Origin: a virus
IMG/VR virus record: IMGVR_UViG_3300030331_004689
Location: 1-29,082 of that record
Reading direction: 5' to 3' (one strand)
DNA length: 29,082 nucleotides
Shown here: in pieces, positions 4,669-18,365 of the stretch
Numbering within the stretch: the stretch's first letter is position 1
How the letters are laid out: the number at the start of each line of letters is the position of its first letter
Notes under the pieces: model-generated
What the model was told of the DNA's origin: nothing
The model's input: the letters and a program-made list of their open reading frames with translations, nothing else
Database searches by the model: none
Position numbers and translations under genes: made by a program

Positions 4669-5886
4669 GTGGCGCAGGCTCCGACGCTCCAGCTCCCGAC
4701 CCCGTACCCCAAGCAGCACGCCGCGATCGCTGACTCGGCCCGGGTCGTGGTCATCGAGGCCAGCACCAAGTCAGGCAAGACCGCCGGGTGCCTCACTTGG
4801 CTGCTACAGCAGGCATGGAACACGGGCGGGCCGGGCATGGCGTTCTGGTGGGTAGCACCCGTCTACTCGCAGGCCAAAGCCATCGGGTTCGCCCGGATGA
4901 AGTCCATGCTGACCCAAGCTGACCCCCAGAAGCGTATCTGGAGCAACCACGACTCCGACCTATGGGTAGAACTTTGGAACGGTGCCCGGATCTGGTTCAA
5001 GGGCGCGGATCACACCGACAGCCTGTTCGGAGAGGACGTCTACGCGGCGGTGATCGACGAGGCGACCCGTTGCAAGGAGGACGCATGGATCGCGGTGCGT
5101 TCGACCCTGACCGCGACCCGTGGACCGGTTCGGGTCATCGGCAACGTGAAGGGGCGTCGCAACTGGGCCTTCAACCTTGCACGCCTCGCCGAGGCTGGTA
5201 CGCCCGACATGGCATACCATAAGCTCACCGCCTACGACGCGGTCGATGCCGGAGTGCTTGCTGCCGAGGAGGTTGAGGACGCCAAGCGCATCCTGCCGGA
5301 TCACATCTTCCGGGAGCTGTATCTGGCAGAGCCGACCGATGACGGTGCCAACCCCTTCGGCATCAAGTCAATCCAAGACTGCATTGCACCGACCTCGAAC
5401 CGCTCGCCGATCGTGTACGGCATAGACCTCGCCAAGTCGATCGACTACACGGCGGTGATCGGTTTGGACGATGAAGGTACTGTGGCGGTTTGTGAGCGCT
5501 GGCACGGTACGGACTGGACGACAACGATCGAGCGAATCTGCAACATCGTCGGAGATGGCTGGGCAACGGTTGACTCGACCGGCCTCGGTGATCCTGTCGT
5601 CGAGCAATTGCAGAAACGACTGCCACAGGTCGAGGGGTTCAAGTTCACCTCGACCAGCAAGCAGCAACTGATGGAGGGCCTTGCCGCCAGCATCTCCGCG
5701 CAAGAGGTCCGCTTCCCAGACAACTGGCTCCGCGCCGAGTTGGAAATCTTTGAGTTCGAGCACTCACGCACCGGGGTCCGCTACTCCGCCCCGCAAGGCA
5801 GTCACGACGATGGTGTCTGTGCATTAGCCCTTGCCGTCCGGGCGAAGGACAAGTTGGCCGGGCGCTTCTCTTATAGGATTATCTGA
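4669..5886 (+). CDS. terL: Terminase large subunit (packaging ATPase/nuclease)
   Basis: 405 residues from GTG 4669, following a G-rich Shine-Dalgarno. The N-terminal ATPase has Walker A ASTKSGKT at 31-38 and Walker B VIDEA at 128-132. The C-terminal RNase H-like nuclease shows the acidic metal ligands: D253 in YGIDLAKSID, D302 in VDSTGLGDP and D380/D381 in GSHDDGV. This motor pumps DNA into the prohead through the portal, encoded next, and cuts the concatemer. At 405 residues it is at the short end for the family, but both domains are complete. Its stop overlaps the portal start (TGATG). Confidence 0.95.
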   Translation: MAQAPTLQLPTPYPKQHAAIADSARVVVIEASTKSGKTAGCLTWLLQQAWNTGGPGMAFWWVAPVYSQAKAIGFARMKSMLTQADPQKRIWSNHDSDLWVELWNGARIWFKGADHTDSLFGEDVYAAVIDEATRCKEDAWIAVRSTLTATRGPVRVIGNVKGRRNWAFNLARLAEAGTPDMAYHKLTAYDAVDAGVLAAEEVEDAKRILPDHIFRELYLAEPTDDGANPFGIKSIQDCIAPTSNRSPIVYGIDLAKSIDYTAVIGLDDEGTVAVCERWHGTDWTTTIERICNIVGDGWATVDSTGLGDPVVEQLQKRLPQVEGFKFTSTSKQQLMEGLAASISAQEVRFPDNWLRAELEIFEFEHSRTGVRYSAPQGSHDDGVCALALAVRAKDKLAGRFSYRII

Positions 5887-8800
5887 TGATCAACTGGATC
5901 AAGCGACTTTTCGACTCTGACAAGTACACAAACGCGTCCATCCGGATGGTGGATCAGATGGGCCGAGAGGGATCGGCGCAACCACCATTCAACTACCGGA
6001 TTGCCGTCAAGTCCCTTCGGTCATGGGTGTACGCTGCGGCATGGATCAACTCGTCCGCAGTGGCCGCAACACCGCTTCGGCTATATGTCCGGAACGACTC
6101 CAGCCAGAAGTCACTCTGGCGCACTCGCCGCGTGAGCATGGCCCGAAAGCGGTACATGATGGGAGACGGTCAGGGTGATGTCCGACCGTCTGCGAGCGTG
6201 ATCAACAAGGTGATGGAGATGGGCGACGACATGGTTGAGGTCACAGAGACCCACCCTGTGATCGAGCTGCTACGCAAAGCGAACCACGTCTACAACGGGT
6301 TCGACCTGACTCTGCTGCGGACCCTCTATCAGGAACTGACCGGCAACGCCTACCTTCACCCGATCATCGATCCCGCTCTCGAGGTGCCCACGCAGCTCTG
6401 GCCCATGCCGTCTCAGCATGTGCAGGTGATCCCAAGCCGCGACAACTTTGTAGACGGATACTTGTACGGTGCCGACGATGCTCAAGCCATGAGGTTCGAA
6501 GCGGACGAGGTGATCCACTTCAAGCGCCCGAACCCGGATAACCTGTTCTACGGCCTCGGCAAGGTCGAGGCAGCCTATGGCTCCGTCGCCGCGAATCAAG
6601 CCGTGCATGAGATGGACCTCTCGATCTTCGAGAACCATGCCCGACCCGACTACGCGGTGGTGGTCAATGGACCGCACCGCAGGGCCGACCTCGATGTCTT
6701 TGAGCAGCACGTCAGCGAGCGGCTCCGAGGGACTCGCAAGGCGGGCCAGTTCCTGACGGTCAGCGGGGACGTGCAGTTCACGCCGCTGAACTTCCCTCCT
6801 AAGGACCTGAGTGGACGCGATGAGATCGTTGAGGAGATCGCTGCGGTGTTCGGGGTTCCGGTCAGCATGATGAAGGCCAACGACCCGAACTTGGCCTCGG
6901 CCCGCGCTGGCTTCGCTCAATGGCGAGAGTCCACCATCCTCCCGCTCCTCCGCATGGACGAAGACGTTCTCAACCAGATCTTGTTGCCCATGTTCGGCAT
7001 CGAGGAGGATGCCTGCCTTGCATACGACAACCCGGTTCCAGCCGACAACGCTTTCCAGCTACAGGAGCGACAGGCGGCGGTGGCAGGCGGCTGGATGACC
7101 CTCAACGAAGCGCGGATAGCTCAGGGGCTCGAGGCGAACGACAACCCACTAGCGGACGAGCTGCTGTTCAATGGTCAGCCTCTTGGTGCTGCGCCTCCGG
7201 TGCCCGGTCCTCCTCTCGGCTTGGCCGGAATTGACACGCCGATCATGACGCAGGAACAGGAGCAGGATGAGATAGGGGTCGTGCGCTCGATGAAGTCGGT
7301 GCTGGCCGACGTGGCTGACGGCAACCTGTCCGCCCATGCCGCGATCACTCTCTGCAAGAAGCTCGGCGTGCCGAATGAAGACGCGGTTGAGGCTGTCCTC
7401 TCCCAGAGCCGGATCGCGATGGACCGGTCTAGAGTCAAGCAGGTCGAGCCCACGCATGTCGATATATACGCCACCAAGGAGGAAGCGATGGAACGTGCGA
7501 GGGAGCTGGGCTGCTCTGGCTTCCACGAGCACGAGATGGAAGATGGCACGGTCATGTACATGCCATGCGGCGAGATGGACGACTACACCGAGATCACTGG
7601 ACTGCAACACGCCAAAGCCGTCGAGCGTGGTGACATGGACTTGTTCTCGACCCGCGAAGAAGCAGAGGAGCGTGCTCGAGAGCTTGGCTGTGAAGGTGCC
7701 CATGAGCATGAGATGGAGGACGGGACCATCATGTTCATGCCATGCGAAGACATGAGCGAATACACGGACATCACCGGGCTCGAGCACGCGAAGGCCATCG
7801 AGGACGTGGACCTCACCCCCACGAAGACCATGTCCGAGATGGCCGAGCGTGGGCTCCGACTGCGTGAAGAACATGGAAGAGGCGGCACGGCCGTCGGAGT
7901 CGCACGCGCCAGAGACATCAAGAACCGCGAGAACCTCAGCCCGGAGACGGTGCGCCGCATGCAATCATTCTTCGCTCGGCACCGTGTAGACCTTGAGTCA
8001 CCAGCCGCCAAGCCCGGGCACGAAGACTACCCATCAGCAGGAGTCATCGCTTGGTTGCTTTGGGGCGGAGATCCGAGCGACCCCGAGGGTGCAGGTACCG
8101 CGTGGGCCAACATGAAGGACCGCCAGCTTGAGCAGGCTGCCGGATCAAAGGCTGCCGGAGACCGCATCAGTGCCACCCCGGCAAAGCCGGAGGAGCGCAT
8201 CACCGGATCCGACACCAACAAGCCCGGAACCGCATCAGGGACTCGTGGTGGAATCGAGATATCCGAGGCGCAGGAGAAGGCACTGAAGACGAAGGTGCAA
8301 GAGCACAACGAGAAGCACGGTGACAAGAAGGGGAAGAAGGTCAACATGGGAATGCTCAAGGCGGTCTATCGCCGTGGGGCTGGCGCGTTCTCAACCTCGC
8401 ATCGTCCCGGCATGTCTCGACAACAGTGGAGCATGGCACGCGTCAACGCCTTCCTGTACCTCGTCAGAAACGGTCGACCAAAGGATGCGAAGTACACGAC
8501 CGACAACGACCTCCTTCCAAAGGGCCACCCGAAGAAGAGCGACGCCAAGAAACAACTCCAGATCGACCGTGACATCGATGACGTCAGCAGCTCAAGCCCG
8601 GTGAGTGCTCAGATCATCCGTGCCGTCGACGCTGACGGTGACGGCAGGATCAGCACGGCCGATCTCCTGCGCTACGTCAGGAACTGGATTGAAGGGGACG
8701 AATCGGCGGACATCAATCTCGATGGCAACGTCGACATCCTTGACATCGATGCATTGGGTCAGATCCTCACGACCATGGCAGGCTACGAGCAAGATGACAT

Positions 8801-9086
8801 CACCAAGACGGATCTGGAAAAGTACGTTGATACCTTGGCCGTTGCGGTCATGGACGAAGACAACGAAAGGGTCACCCTTGACGCCGCTCTGCTTCTTGCC
8901 GGGACCATCAGTAGATTCCACGGTGTACACCACGGCCTCCCGACATTGCTGAGGACACGAGTGAACGAGCTGGTCGGTCGAGGTGATGAAGACGATGATG
9001 CGCCAACCAAGCCGCGACCATCACCAACCTCGGATCCGGGTGTACCAATTGGCGGAACTGGCGCGACTCCCGAAGGCGGTGGATGA
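5886..9086 (+). CDS. Portal protein with long multidomain C-terminal extension (Cys/His repeats, phage modules, dockerin-like domain)
   Basis: 1066 residues from ATG 5886, more than double a usual portal. Residues ~1-430 are an HK97-type portal, the dodecameric ring through which DNA enters and to which the tail joins (GNAYLHPIID; DEVIHFKRP; EIAAVFGVPVSMM; NEARIAQGLEANDNPLADEL). After a linker come two 59-residue tandem repeats (526-643), a module with GVARARDIKNRENLSPETVR and GVIAWLLWGGDP (~649-755), a module with VNMGMLKAVYRRGAGAFSTS and TTDNDLLPKGHP (~798-887), a dockerin-like pair of Ca-binding loops (~908-965) and a Pro/Gly/Asp-rich tail. The frame is continuous. The modules recur as fusions to phage head proteins as far as I recall; a dockerin on a portal is unusual. 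Confidence 0.93.
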   Translation: MINWIKRLFDSDKYTNASIRMVDQMGREGSAQPPFNYRIAVKSLRSWVYAAAWINSSAVAATPLRLYVRNDSSQKSLWRTRRVSMARKRYMMGDGQGDVRPSASVINKVMEMGDDMVEVTETHPVIELLRKANHVYNGFDLTLLRTLYQELTGNAYLHPIIDPALEVPTQLWPMPSQHVQVIPSRDNFVDGYLYGADDAQAMRFEADEVIHFKRPNPDNLFYGLGKVEAAYGSVAANQAVHEMDLSIFENHARPDYAVVVNGPHRRADLDVFEQHVSERLRGTRKAGQFLTVSGDVQFTPLNFPPKDLSGRDEIVEEIAAVFGVPVSMMKANDPNLASARAGFAQWRESTILPLLRMDEDVLNQILLPMFGIEEDACLAYDNPVPADNAFQLQERQAAVAGGWMTLNEARIAQGLEANDNPLADELLFNGQPLGAAPPVPGPPLGLAGIDTPIMTQEQEQDEIGVVRSMKSVLADVADGNLSAHAAITLCKKLGVPNEDAVEAVLSQSRIAMDRSRVKQVEPTHVDIYATKEEAMERARELGCSGFHEHEMEDGTVMYMPCGEMDDYTEITGLQHAKAVERGDMDLFSTREEAEERARELGCEGAHEHEMEDGTIMFMPCEDMSEYTDITGLEHAKAIEDVDLTPTKTMSEMAERGLRLREEHGRGGTAVGVARARDIKNRENLSPETVRRMQSFFARHRVDLESPAAKPGHEDYPSAGVIAWLLWGGDPSDPEGAGTAWANMKDRQLEQAAGSKAAGDRISATPAKPEERITGSDTNKPGTASGTRGGIEISEAQEKALKTKVQEHNEKHGDKKGKKVNMGMLKAVYRRGAGAFSTSHRPGMSRQQWSMARVNAFLYLVRNGRPKDAKYTTDNDLLPKGHPKKSDAKKQLQIDRDIDDVSSSSPVSAQIIRAVDADGDGRISTADLLRYVRNWIEGDESADINLDGNVDILDIDALGQILTTMAGYEQDDITKTDLEKYVDTLAVAVMDEDNERVTLDAALLLAGTISRFHGVHHGLPTLLRTRVNELVGRGDEDDDAPTKPRPSPTSDPGVPIGGTGATPEGGG
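7461..7814 (+). repeat. Tandem 177-bp coding repeat in the portal gene (2 copies, CxxxHxH...C motif)
   Basis: Two in-frame copies (7461-7637 and 7638-7814) each encode 59 residues; 40 of 59 residues are identical by my alignment. Each copy begins with a T(K/R)EEA..RARELGC helix, then H-E-H-EMEDGT and MPC, then a Y.(E/D)ITGL.HAKA helix. The conserved C-x3-H-x-H-x11-C (C543, H547, H549, C561 and C602, H606, H608, C620) looks like a metal-binding site. DNA identity is clearly lower than protein identity, so this is an old duplication under selection. Confidence 0.9.
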
Positions 9087-9973
9087 TGTCCTGCGATTGT
9101 TGTGGTGCAACCAGTCGATTGATCCACCAGAGCGCTCTTGACGTGACTGCGCCGTACGTCCACACCAAGAACCAGACGCCGGACCCCAGCATCACAACAT
9201 CAGCAACAGCCTACAACCGTTTCCAACTCGAACTTCGCAAGTACATCGACAGCATTCTCAGAGAAGCGGTTCTCAAGCTGGGCGGGTCCGGTACATATTC
9301 GGAAGCCATGTCCCGAGTTCTGACTGAGTCCCATCTGCGTGGGCAGCTCGAGGGCGAGATTGAAAGACAAGCACGAAAGATACCGCCCTTCATCGCTCAG
9401 TTCTTGACACGTCAAGCCGCGTCGGGCTACACGATGGGCCAGACCCTGCTCCCGTCTATGATCGCTCAAGGACTTGTTGCCAATGAACAGGTTCAATCGA
9501 TCATTCGGGAGCAGATGTTGCGTCTCAGCAATCAAGGGGTGATCACGGCGCGGGGGACCATCAAGCAACTTCTAGGGGACACGCTGGAGCAGGGTGCAAC
9601 CCCGAGAGAGATCACTTCGCGCGTACAAGACTGGGCGAAGCGGCAAGGCGATCAGGACCGTGCAGTTCGCTGGAGGGCGGAGCGCATCGCCAGAACCGAG
9701 GCATCACGCGCCTTGAATTCCGGGCAAGTAGTTGCGTGGGAGGATATGGGTGTGACCCGCATGAGCTGGTTGGTCGCGCCAAACCCATGCGAGTTCTGTG
9801 CAGCTATGAAAGGCAGCGGCTCGCAAGACATCAAGACCCCGTTCTTCACTGTCGGATCTACTTTGAGCGGGACCAAGGGCGGGAAACTTGCGATAGACTA
9901 TGCAGATGTGCGCACTCCGCCCCTGCATCCGAACTGCCGATGCACCCTCCGCCCGATTGTTTCCAACCGTTAG
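9083..9973 (+). CDS. Phage minor head protein (Mu gpF/SPP1 gp7-like)
   Basis: 296 residues from ATG 9083, overlapping the portal stop (ATGA). The C-terminal part matches the Mu F-like head morphogenesis domain: ERIARTEASRALNSGQVVAW, then SWLVAPNPCEFCAAMKG, and the closing RTPPLHPNCRCTLRPI with its cysteines and histidine. The N-terminus (MMSCDCCGATSRL) adds a small Cys cluster. These proteins associate with the portal and are often carried inside the head. Gene order portal, minor head protein, protease, capsid is typical. N-terminal function unknown. Confidence 0.9.
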   Translation: MMSCDCCGATSRLIHQSALDVTAPYVHTKNQTPDPSITTSATAYNRFQLELRKYIDSILREAVLKLGGSGTYSEAMSRVLTESHLRGQLEGEIERQARKIPPFIAQFLTRQAASGYTMGQTLLPSMIAQGLVANEQVQSIIREQMLRLSNQGVITARGTIKQLLGDTLEQGATPREITSRVQDWAKRQGDQDRAVRWRAERIARTEASRALNSGQVVAWEDMGVTRMSWLVAPNPCEFCAAMKGSGSQDIKTPFFTVGSTLSGTKGGKLAIDYADVRTPPLHPNCRCTLRPIVSNR

Positions 9974-9987
9974 CCGATAGGATTATC

Positions 9988-10665
9988 ATGGAACGACGCA
10001 CCAAGACACTCAGCGCATCTGTCAAGATGGACGACGGGGGCATCGTCGCCAAGCTGACCACGAACAGCGTGGACCGGGACGGCGAGGTCCTGATCCCACA
10101 GGGCATGGTCAGCAAGGACTTCGAGAAGAACCCCGTGCTGTTCTACAACCACGAGTATGACCAGCCCATCGGGAAGGTCACCAACCTGAAGCGGACCGAG
10201 GACTCGGTCATGGGCACGCTGACGTTCGCCCAGAGGCCCAAGGACTACGTCGGCGAGTTCTTCCCGAGCTTCGTCGAGGCACTCGTCCGACAGGGCATCG
10301 TCAAGGGCGTCAGCGTTGGCTTCGTGCCTGAACCAAGCGGAGCACGATCGGCGACCAAGGCCGACCGGATGCGGTTCGGCGAAAAGATCAAGCGCGTTTT
10401 CAACCGATGGAAGCTGCTGGAAGTCTCCATTGCACCGCTTCCGGCTAATCAGGATGCACTGATCCAAGCCGTGGACAAGGGCCTCGTCACGCCGGTTCAG
10501 GTCAAGAGCTTCCTCGGCGTGGACATTGAGCCCACCAAGATCAGGCCCGTGGTGCGTGTAAAGCAAAGACACAAGATCAGGCTGCGAGGCATGACCCGCG
10601 AGGGTCTTGTTGCCAAGGCAGTCAGCAAAGAACTGAGCAAGCGCAGCGGGCGCTTGTACGAGTAA
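9988..10665 (+). CDS. HK97-family prohead protease
   Basis: 225 residues from ATG 9988, preceded by ATAGGATTATC. It fits the U35 serine protease that matures HK97-type proheads: NSVDRDGEVLIPQGM near the N-terminus, the catalytic histidine H55 in FYNHEYDQPIG, the nucleophile S109 in VKGVSVGFVPEP, and LLEVSIAPLPANQDAL. It should cleave the N-terminal delta domain of the capsid protein encoded next and then itself. A basic C-terminal tail (KQRHKIRLRGMTREGLVAKA) may target it into the scaffold. The frame is open further upstream, but the coding region of the minor head protein makes 9988 the sensible start. Confidence 0.93.
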   Translation: MERRTKTLSASVKMDDGGIVAKLTTNSVDRDGEVLIPQGMVSKDFEKNPVLFYNHEYDQPIGKVTNLKRTEDSVMGTLTFAQRPKDYVGEFFPSFVEALVRQGIVKGVSVGFVPEPSGARSATKADRMRFGEKIKRVFNRWKLLEVSIAPLPANQDALIQAVDKGLVTPVQVKSFLGVDIEPTKIRPVVRVKQRHKIRLRGMTREGLVAKAVSKELSKRSGRLYE

Positions 10666-10758
10666 CGGATGACCGGCTACCTGCCGAACCGATGGCGTCA
10701 AGCCGAGCGGGTGGCAGGGCAGATAGCCCACGCATCGCAACCAAGAAGGAACTGCAAC

Positions 10759-12450
10759 ATGCAGAAGTCAATCACCGAAGTCGAGTCAGACCTTCAAGGT
10801 CTGCTTGACGAGGTCGGCGTTGACGGTTTCCCCGTGACGAAAGCGCTGTACCTGAAGGACGTGCAGATCGTTGATGCCGAGGGCAACCCTGTATCCGCCG
10901 AAGATGTAGACCTCGAAATCGAACTCAAGGCCGAAGAAGAAGAGGCCGACGAGAAGATGACGATGGAGGACGACGACGAGAAGGTCTACGGCAAGCCCGG
11001 CGTCCACGACGACGACGAGCGCAAAGCCGTAGAGGAAGAAGAAGAAAAGGCTGAGGAAGAAGACGACGAAAAGACCAAGGCACTCGAAGACGAAGATGCC
11101 GACATGCCCCAGAAGCCTCGGTCACGTCTTCGGATCGGTGTAGGCGTGAAGCCGGGTTCCCGTGCTGGACAGCCTACGAGTCTGCGGAATCCTCGTACGG
11201 GAGAAAACTTCCCGCAGGACGGGCGGCGCGGCAGGAAGTCAATAGCGGACGAAGCTAGAGCCGCTGTCAACAAGACCCTCAACAACAACAAGATCAACTC
11301 GAAGGGATTCGACATGCGAATCGACAACGAGCGCGAGGGCCTCAAGCGATGGGGCAGCCTCAAGCACATCAGCCGCGTGGGTAGCTGCGCGGATCAGGAA
11401 CTGGAAGCGTACCGTATCGGACGATGGGCAGCGGCCTGCATGGGTCACAAGAAGTCGCAGGACTACTGCGCGAACCACGGCATCGAGACCAAGGCCCACC
11501 TCGAGACTGTGAACAGTCAGGGCGGGTTCCTTGTTCCCGAGGAATTCAGCAACACCCTCATCAGTCTCCGCGAGGAATACGGTGTTTTCCGCAGGAACGC
11601 GAAGATCGAGCCGATGACCTCGGACACGAAGCGCATCCCGAAGCGGTCCGCGACTCTCACGGCCAGCTTCGTCGGCGAAGCAACTGCCGGGTCCGAGAGC
11701 ACCATGACGTTCCAGTCAGTGCAGCTCGTTGCCAAGAAGCTGATGGTTCTGACCTCGATCAGCAATGAACTCAACGAGGACAGCTTGCTGAACCTTGGCG
11801 ACAGCGTTGCTGGCGAGATCGCCTACGCGCAGGCCCTCAAGGAAGACGAGTGCGGCTTCATGGGTACCGGCACCAGCGAGTTCGGTGGAATCGTCGGCAT
11901 CATCAATGCGATGAACAACGTCAGCAGCAACGCAGGCGTGACCGTTCTGGACTCGTCTGATCGACGTCCGTCCAACATCGCAATCTCCGACTTCCACAAC
12001 ATGATGGGTACGCTGCCTCCGTACGCAGACACCCCCCGCGCCAAGTTCTACATGCACAAGAGCATCTGGAACGGCGTCTGTGAGTCGCTGATCTATGGCG
12101 TTGGCGGTACTTCTGCGCGTGAGATCCAGCAGGGTTCGCAGGGCACCAGCTTCTTGGGGTATCCGGTCGAGTTCGCTCAAGTTATGCCGGACATCACGAC
12201 CGGCTCGACCGGTGCGGACGGACAGGCATCGGATGAGACCTTCCGCTTCCCCATCATCTTCGGTGATCTCTCCCTCGGTTGCGCCTTCGGCGACCGGCGT
12301 GAGAACACCATTGCGTTCTCCGACTCGGCCCTCAACGCCTTCGAGCAGGACGAGATCGTCGTCCGAGGCACCGAGCGGTTCGACATCCAGTGCCACAGCC
12401 CCGGCACCAGCGCAGAAGCTGGACCGGTCGTTGGTATGAAGCTCGACTGA
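10759..12450 (+). CDS. Major capsid protein, HK97 fold, with long acidic N-terminal (delta/scaffold) domain
   Basis: 563 residues from ATG 10759, chosen because AAGAAGGAA lies just upstream (an in-frame ATG at 10669 lacks one). The HK97-fold shell protein begins near residue 250 (NSQGGFLVPEEFSNTLISLR) and continues with KRSATLTASFVGEA, ISNELNEDSLLNLGDSVAGE and a C-terminal AFEQDEIVVRGTERFD. The first ~250 residues act as a built-in scaffold: residues ~51-117 are extremely Glu/Asp/Lys-rich, then comes a basic segment (KPRSRLRIGVGVKPGSR). This region should be removed in part by the prohead protease. No separate scaffold gene is seen. Confidence 0.95.
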   Translation: MQKSITEVESDLQGLLDEVGVDGFPVTKALYLKDVQIVDAEGNPVSAEDVDLEIELKAEEEEADEKMTMEDDDEKVYGKPGVHDDDERKAVEEEEEKAEEEDDEKTKALEDEDADMPQKPRSRLRIGVGVKPGSRAGQPTSLRNPRTGENFPQDGRRGRKSIADEARAAVNKTLNNNKINSKGFDMRIDNEREGLKRWGSLKHISRVGSCADQELEAYRIGRWAAACMGHKKSQDYCANHGIETKAHLETVNSQGGFLVPEEFSNTLISLREEYGVFRRNAKIEPMTSDTKRIPKRSATLTASFVGEATAGSESTMTFQSVQLVAKKLMVLTSISNELNEDSLLNLGDSVAGEIAYAQALKEDECGFMGTGTSEFGGIVGIINAMNNVSSNAGVTVLDSSDRRPSNIAISDFHNMMGTLPPYADTPRAKFYMHKSIWNGVCESLIYGVGGTSAREIQQGSQGTSFLGYPVEFAQVMPDITTGSTGADGQASDETFRFPIIFGDLSLGCAFGDRRENTIAFSDSALNAFEQDEIVVRGTERFDIQCHSPGTSAEAGPVVGMKLD

Positions 12451-16448: not shown

Positions 16449-17532
16449 GATCATTGCAAGGCTGGACAAGCTTGAGAAGGGCTTGCAATCGGCCGAGCAA
16501 AGAGTCAAGAAGACCGGCAAGACAATGGACGACGCCTTGGCCACACCGACGGGGAAGATGGCCGTCAACATGGGGAAGGTGTTCGCAGTCATGGGCGTGG
16601 CCGAGGGAGCGGTCAAGGGCATCGGTGGCGCAGCACATGCGGTAGCAGGCGTGTTCAAGGGATTGACCGGCGACACCGAAGGGATGCGCGACTCGCTTGC
16701 TGCATCCAGCGAACTGATCAAGACGCTACCGTTCGGCATAGGTGCTCTCGTTGCAGGCTTCGAGCAGGTGGCCAAGTCACTCATGGGCATCGCTGAACAG
16801 GAGGAGCGCCTTCTTCAGTTGCAGAACCAACTTGTTGCCAGCCGACGCGCAACGCAGAGAGAGAAGCAGATTGTTCAAGAGACCAAGCTGTTGGAGATGC
16901 AGTACGAACTCATGATCGAGGGCGATGAAGAGCACAGCATGCACCTCGCTCATCAGCTTGAGCTTGAGCAGAATGCGGCAAGGATGAACCAGAAGATGGC
17001 ATCATTGCGCGAGGCAGCACAAGCCGCGCTTGCCGAGGGTGATGAGCAGACCGCCTTGAACCTCAGGCATGCGGCGAATGCTCTGAAAGATCAGATGATT
17101 GTTCAGGAGATGATCATCAACGCAAAGAAGAAGGAGAATGAGGCCGAGCTGATGCGAAAGCGTCAGGCCGAGGAGCAAGCCAAACTTGACCAAGAGCGTG
17201 TTGAGCGCGAGCGCAAGATTGCAGATGAGAAGCGCAAGGCAGCAGAGGAAGAAAAGAGGGCGCTCGAAGAACAGGTTGCACTCGAGGAACAGCGCATGGG
17301 TGCCATCAGCTCGAGACTCGGAATGGTTTCCAAAGAAGCCCAAACCAAGAGCGGATTCACGAATCAGGGCCAGACCGCCTTCGGCACGTTCACCTTCGGC
17401 GAGCAGAACGTTGATGAGAAGATCAGGTCGCTGCAAGAAGAGGCCAACAACACCCAGAAGAGTATTGACAAGAAGACCACCGCGATCGAGCAGATTCTAC
17501 AGACCCTCACTCAGAAGATCGGATTCGCCTGA
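16423..17532 (+). CDS. Tape measure protein (short)
   Basis: 369 residues from ATG 16423, with a very strong Shine-Dalgarno (GAGGAGG at 16409-16415). Residues ~1-45 are helical and basic, ~45-125 hydrophobic and Gly/Ala-rich (VFAVMGVAEGAVKGIGGAAH; LPFGIGALVAGFEQVAKSLM), ~125-300 a long charged coiled coil (AEEQAKLDQERVERERKIAD), and the end is again heptad-like. This layout and place after the chaperones identify the protein that sets tail length. At about 1.5 angstrom per residue it predicts a tail near 55 nm. Confidence 0.87.
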   Translation: MAAGKLEVEIIARLDKLEKGLQSAEQRVKKTGKTMDDALATPTGKMAVNMGKVFAVMGVAEGAVKGIGGAAHAVAGVFKGLTGDTEGMRDSLAASSELIKTLPFGIGALVAGFEQVAKSLMGIAEQEERLLQLQNQLVASRRATQREKQIVQETKLLEMQYELMIEGDEEHSMHLAHQLELEQNAARMNQKMASLREAAQAALAEGDEQTALNLRHAANALKDQMIVQEMIINAKKKENEAELMRKRQAEEQAKLDQERVERERKIADEKRKAAEEEKRALEEQVALEEQRMGAISSRLGMVSKEAQTKSGFTNQGQTAFGTFTFGEQNVDEKIRSLQEEANNTQKSIDKKTTAIEQILQTLTQKIGFA

Positions 17533-18365
17533 TGAGCCAATATGCCGTTGAAACCCAAGACTCTCGCCAAGTGCAGGTTGGTGATGGCAAGGCAACCATC
17601 AGCCGGACGTGGAAGATGTGGGGCTTCCCGAACGAGCAGAGTGCAATCCGTGGATTCAACGCGAGCTATCCACCGGGTCCGGGCTTGAGCGGCAGCACCT
17701 TCGTGCCACGCATCGGAAGTGCGCATCCGCATTTCACGTTCATGAAGGTCCACCGCTACAACCTGACCCAGATGCCCGGCACCAATGATGCATGGGTTGT
17801 GCAGTTTGAGTACCGGAACATCCCTGTCCAGACAAGATCCCCACCGACCCCCACAGGTCTGCCCTCGGGACCTGATGCCATCAGCTTCGAGGAGATCACT
17901 GGCACCGTGTCAGGCTCATTCATCATGGCATACAGGAGCAATCCAAGCCCACCAGCGCTGGGAAGATTCGGGGAAGGCGAGGGTGACATTGGTGGAGTGC
18001 CCTGTGATGCTGGTGGACAGCCAACCAGCCAGATGCGTTACCAGTATGAGATCACCAAGTCCATCGTCACCGAGCAGAACTTCGAGTCGCAGCTCGGACA
18101 GTTCGGAAGCTTTGTCGGAACCAGAGGATCAGGGTTCGGACTACCTGATGGGTCTCTCCTGTACCGTGGGGCTTCCATTCAGCGCATCGAAGCCAACAAG
18201 TACCGGGTGCAGCACACTTACCTCTATGATTCGAACTCCCACTGTCTTCAAGTTCCGCGCTACAACAAGGACGGACAGTTCGATCTCGACGAAGATGGGC
18301 ACGTTGATATGGTGTATTGGAAGCAGCCGTTCCCCGATGCGAACGGTACCCTCCCCGGTATCTGA
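17532..18365 (+). CDS. Tail-tip/baseplate protein with EF-hand-like loop
   Basis: 277 residues from ATG 17532 (TGATG overlap). Directly after the tape measure, where distal tail proteins begin. Beta-rich, with many aromatic and Gly/Pro residues (GFNASYPPGPGLSGSTF; ISFEEITGTVSGSFIMAYRS). Near the C-terminus a Ca-binding-like loop reads KDGQFDLDEDGHVD, with D251, D253, D255 and D259 at EF-hand spacing. No exact family is recognised; a distal tail or baseplate hub role is inferred from order. Confidence 0.6.
   Translation: MSQYAVETQDSRQVQVGDGKATISRTWKMWGFPNEQSAIRGFNASYPPGPGLSGSTFVPRIGSAHPHFTFMKVHRYNLTQMPGTNDAWVVQFEYRNIPVQTRSPPTPTGLPSGPDAISFEEITGTVSGSFIMAYRSNPSPPALGRFGEGEGDIGGVPCDAGGQPTSQMRYQYEITKSIVTEQNFESQLGQFGSFVGTRGSGFGLPDGSLLYRGASIQRIEANKYRVQHTYLYDSNSHCLQVPRYNKDGQFDLDEDGHVDMVYWKQPFPDANGTLPGI

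Follow-up and report, generated by a model that had tools for sequence, protein, structure and literature searches.

The portal protein of this virus, which forms the ring that lets DNA pass into the head, carries, in a long extension behind its core, two canonical calcium loops of the dockerin/EF-hand form, and in a small clade of related phages selection keeps the ligands of these loops. We give a probability of about 0.5 to the reading that the loops form a calcium-stabilised accessory module near the junction of portal and MuF protein, placed in the variable portal extension of this clade. The window analysed here is a single virus record of 29,082 bases.

The portal gene and its extension

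The portal gene lies just downstream of the large terminase gene and is followed by the genes for a MuF protein, an S78 protease and the major capsid protein. With 138.6 bits against PF04860 (cut-off 39.1) its product belongs to the HK97-type portals. Core and loops are found in one ORF of 1066 aa, which bears out the earlier note on this DNA in its claim of a dockerin-like domain fused to a portal. After the core come the DUF3721 repeats (two), the phrog_2859-like domain and DUF5824, then the loop pair, a region of helices and a tail rich in Gly:

5886..9086, + strand: portal protein of 1066 aa with a C-terminal extension of ~630 residues (PF04860, E 3e-40; phrog_2662, E 7e-50; relatives L001, L002, L003, L008)
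6195..7121, + strand: HK97-type portal core, residues 104-412 (Pfam PF04860)
7452..7754, + strand: two DUF3721 repeats, approximately residues 523-623 (PF12518, 66.9 bits, 2 stretches, best 587-623)
7800..8111, + strand: phrog_2859-like domain, residues 639-742 (PHROG match; conserved in most related portals)
8334..8513, + strand: DUF5824, residues 817-876 (PF19141, 35.2 bits)
8601..8783, + strand: dockerin-like module including its flanking helices, residues 906-966 (segment at 29.5 bits against Dockerin_1; AF2 model)
8628..8663, + strand: predicted calcium loop 1, DADGDGRISTAD, residues 915-926 (strict loop pattern, Pfam)
8709..8744, + strand: predicted calcium loop 2, DINLDGNVDILD, residues 942-953 (strict loop pattern, Pfam)
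8796..8993, + strand: predicted three-helix region after the loops (AF2, pLDDT mostly >80)
9050..9083, + strand: C-terminal tail rich in Gly (conserved among relatives; it overlaps the sequence leading into the MuF gene)
9083..9973, + strand: separate MuF minor head protein (PF04233, 39.2 bits; its start overlaps the portal stop, ATGA)

The position of the first DUF3721 copy was set by eye and from paired strands of the AF2 model. Among 24 relatives, columns 636-744 are nearly invariant. At 9050-9095 the conserved Gly-rich end of the portal overlaps the start of MuF (GGCGGTGGATGATG), and a G-rich ribosome site may partly lie behind these glycines.

The two calcium loops

Two loops of the dockerin/EF-hand form had been placed by the earlier note in portal residues 908-965 (8607-8780). 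They are present at these positions and canonical, and a strict EF/dockerin loop pattern has just these two matches in all six frames of the whole window. Both fit the DxNxDGxxxxxD form of the type I dockerin (PF00404), they are spaced by 27 residues, and all ligands are kept in the relatives. A chance motif was ruled out, as not one of 20,000 shuffles of either the protein or the segment gave a loop pair 20-36 residues apart. A loop-like stretch (DLDEDGHVDMVY) was also seen near the C-terminus of a protein at 17532-18365 which has no family match; this stretch lacks a ligand at the twelfth position.

Taken alone, the 72-aa segment reaches 29.5 bits against Dockerin_1 (cut-off 22.9), its best Pfam match, with 52 profile positions aligned over 45 residues. 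The six-frame search of the genome also passes this cut-off (23.2 bits), but the full-length portal stays under it (17.8 bits), and against EF-hand_1 the segment scores 24.1 bits with a cut-off of 25.4. A profile search of this kind had been proposed along with the original claim. EF-hand_1 is passed by the modules of the relatives L002 (27.2) and L003 (28.0), and for L002 EF-hand_5 (32.6 bits) ranks above Dockerin_1 (21.3 bits). When module profiles were searched against PDB sequences, the best matches were EF-hand proteins. Since the segment exceeds the Dockerin_1 cut-off while the full protein does not and EF-hand_1 is missed just barely, the dockerin-type Pfam label, judged from sequence, appears real yet not clear-cut.

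Structure prediction

An AF2 model built with five sequences reaches a pLDDT >90 over a large part of the two loops; it predicts one helix ahead of loop 1, one behind either loop and another three. In the window portal the first of these helices (residues 906-914) directly precedes loop 1, and no long helix is predicted ahead of loop 2. The model of the full-length portal, as suggested by the earlier note, is too poor (mean pLDDT 59, pTM 0.26) for placing the extension. Foldseek searches of the module against PDB and BFVD returned nothing at E <0.001; VIA-align gave a best Z of about 5, to unrelated helical proteins, and was uninformative. No dockerin chain was among the structural matches listed.

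The extension as a variable carrier

We fetched 80 related portals, 64 of which had a complete ORF (the window and two relatives included), and reduced them to 32 representatives. A MuF-type HPxCRC motif stands at the end of the portal in 20 of the 32, and Pfam recognises MuF in 8 out of 24 related portals. At least ten other representatives have neither a fused MuF nor loops. In the contig L015 (6001-11436) a homologous portal of 1812 residues has polyvalent cargo fused within its extension, which matches ART-PolyVal (104 bits), GNAT and DUF3721 and, weakly, ParB and DUF3626. Because the portal extension ends in MuF in some relatives and holds ART-PolyVal and GNAT in another, we regard it as a variable platform located between the portal and MuF.

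A protease-capsid fusion of Roseobacter phage CRP-831 (L093:3884-6808) has, N-terminally, a region related to window portal residues 677-882, and it also shows a weak match to DUF5824. This fusion is annotated as major capsid protein, again a head protein; therefore, such modules appear to move between head proteins.

In SPP1 the portal takes gp7, a MuF protein, inside the procapsid (PMC6316719), and effector domains that are fused to the portal or to MuF have been described as injected (PMC5512222). As the full-length model is too poor for a direct placement, we infer from the MuF fusions and the published SPP1 biology that the extension and its module probably lie inside the head.

Occurrence of the module and selection on its ligands

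A search for the same fusion in related portals, which the earlier note had recommended, was successful. It is found on several independent metagenome contigs, by which misassembly was ruled out, and the portal of L002 has one loop pair, those of L003 and L008 have two pairs (four loops). With an overlap of 123 identical bases, L004 and L008 probably belong to the same phage. Among the 32 representatives the loop-bearing portal is confined to the clade of the window, with few contigs in all. L014 has a portal core with 74% identity, and here a loop pair together with DUF3721 is encoded by a gene of its own, which lies between those of portal and MuF (9844-11103; the module frame has 419 residues from stop to stop). 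Therefore, fusion and splitting of the module both occur. A search for further free-standing copies of this kind returned L014 alone. A tblastn search of named phages, for which the window segment and the tail with four loops served as queries, revealed no similar module, and PHROGs gave no significant family. The sole related portal in a scan of genome_contigs (52% identity) is on L091, a contig of a Coriobacteriia MAG, which is possibly a binned phage contig; naming a host from it was dropped, a single relative being too weak.

When seven modules are aligned, the columns that do not vary are those of the loop D and G residues and of one additional Gly. For a quantitative comparison we defined a ligand set of ten residues, consisting of D1, D/N3, D5, G6 and D12 of each loop (the ligands plus the loop Gly). 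Between the window and L002 all ten are identical, five of them with silent codon changes, compared with 13 of the 34 other residues (Fisher P=0.0006). Outside the ligand set dN and dS are both ~0.60 (dN/dS about 1), in the portal core they are 0.063 and 0.75. Selection thus acts on the ligands and not on a fixed surface, and the ratio close to 1 outside of them argues against one fixed partner surface.

A second, exported dockerin protein in related phages

Several related phages encode another dockerin protein (L018:527-1288, L029:655-1323, L032:2382-2975, L034:3989-4636, L036:1785-2444 and L004:1-504). It has ~200 residues, its gene is located upstream of the portal (L018, L029, L032, L034, L036), and most copies have an apparent signal peptide. 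At the C-terminus it has a dockerin pair, again with a spacing of 27; in the L004 form the first loop is degenerate. Exported and portal modules align without gaps, and all eight invariant columns are loop positions. The N-terminal part is beta-rich and without family match, and a search of this beta domain against the PDB gave nothing significant. A canonical-loop counterpart of this protein was not found in the window. In style the exported modules resemble planctomycete dockerins, which would presumably point to planctomycete hosts.

Comparison with known systems

Like the type I dockerin (PF00404, including short non-cellulosomal forms), the module has two 12-residue calcium loops, each followed by a predicted helix, and the segment, though not the full protein, exceeds the Pfam cut-off. 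It differs from cellulosomal dockerins in the spacing of its loops. In the dockerin of B. cellulosolvens the first ligands are 33 residues apart (Asp8/Asp41, PMC8063739) and in that of C. thermocellum the equivalent contact residues are 32-34 apart (PMC4728124), so the value of about 27 in the earlier note is correct, but its likening to type I dockerins does not hold for the cellulosomal ones. Also unlike a type I dockerin, the phage module is without conserved cohesin-contact residues, sits on a non-secreted head protein and has a predicted helix before loop 1. With EF-hand pairs (calmodulin-like, PF00036/PF13202/PF13499) it shares an identical loop chemistry, in line with the PDB matches and the preference of L002 for EF-hand_5. 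However, the short distance between its loops leaves no room for a complete entering helix ahead of loop 2, and the window segment stays below the EF-hand_1 cut-off.

The arrangement is like that of polyvalent and MuF portal fusions, in which portal or MuF bear extra domains (PMC5512222, PMC5576092), as do the relatives with MuF, ART-PolyVal and GNAT; here, however, the extra domain is a predicted calcium-binding module, and dockerin and EF-hand are unmentioned in PMC5512222. Phage-encoded EF-hand-like or dockerin-like sequences are also those of the lysin LysGH15 (PMC4022735) and of VvAW1 gene 40 (PMC3558961), the former being a lysin and the latter a protein of unknown role, unlike the portal of the window. 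A literature search, mostly outside subscription journals, found no report of a dockerin on a portal.

Possible functions of the module

According to the preferred reading, a dockerin-type (F-hand-like) module has been placed in an extension that in most cases connects the portal with MuF or with effector domains. It would most likely bind two calcium ions (four in L003/L008). Calcium is low inside cells and high outside. The module would stay loose in the calcium-poor cytoplasm during assembly and would take up a compact fold in calcium-rich surroundings, for example in the released virion. Once folded, it may stabilise or anchor the portal extension beside the separately made MuF protein.

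A true docking module would bind a cohesin-like partner of host or phage with high affinity and in dependence on calcium; the earlier note had suggested a cohesin-like partner, which may be a host protein. Dockerin_1 is indeed the top Pfam match of the window segment, and the exported protein of related phages shares the 27-spaced module, in a style that we presume to be planctomycete-like. Freshwater planctomycetes encode cohesin/dockerin systems (PMC6461901). However, the cohesin-contact positions (11, 12, 18, 19, 22 and 23 of each repeat) differ across relatives, none being invariant among the window, L002 and L003; no match to Cohesin families was found in ten phage records (some of them fragments), as the earlier note had already stated for this genome; the MuF protein, as a partner the nearest candidate, matches the MuF family alone and no cohesin family; and a domain inside the head would meet no exported host protein. 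Because contact residues vary, the ten records are without Cohesin match and MuF matches only MuF, cohesin docking is unsupported by the sequences, and we regard such a function as unlikely. A non-covalent tether is a little easier to imagine, though still rather doubtful: the calcium module would replace the covalent link of portal and MuF by binding either the separately encoded MuF or a different head protein. The loops stand directly before the split-off MuF gene in the window and in relatives, MuF being fused in the majority of related portals, and L014 encodes the module as a protein of its own between portal and MuF. Yet this link is not specific, since the at least ten loop-free representatives are also without a fused MuF, and the surfaces of the module diverge fast.

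The ART-PolyVal and GNAT domains in the homologous extension of L015, together with the injected effectors described for such fusions (PMC5512222), would agree with an injected cargo, in which extension and module would reach the cell together, the module serving there as a calcium chelator or binding domain. We consider this quite improbable, as a portal subunit is fixed in the ring and its injection would need cutting, no enzyme family matches the module, and cytosolic calcium is low. Still less probable is a passenger domain from the host gene pool that binds calcium and has no specific role beyond spacing. Its patchy presence, the fast divergence outside the ligands and the lineage-specific extension would fit, but the ligands are strictly kept and extra pairs have been retained or gained in four lineages.

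A bolder reading is conceivable, although unlikely: a calcium-operated docking device in the head, with dockerin-like modules on the portal ring by which a head protein, either MuF or cargo, is recruited or released as calcium shifts between cytoplasm and outside. If true, a virus would here put the dockerin principle to use. The C-terminal extensions of portals are already known as sites of extra domains. A selected and repeatedly rebuilt calcium module at such a site would offer a concrete way to learn if proteins inside the virion respond to calcium, and it would also add a viral head protein to the carriers of dockerin-like modules. If the module is just structural, it would be a modest addition to portal diversity.
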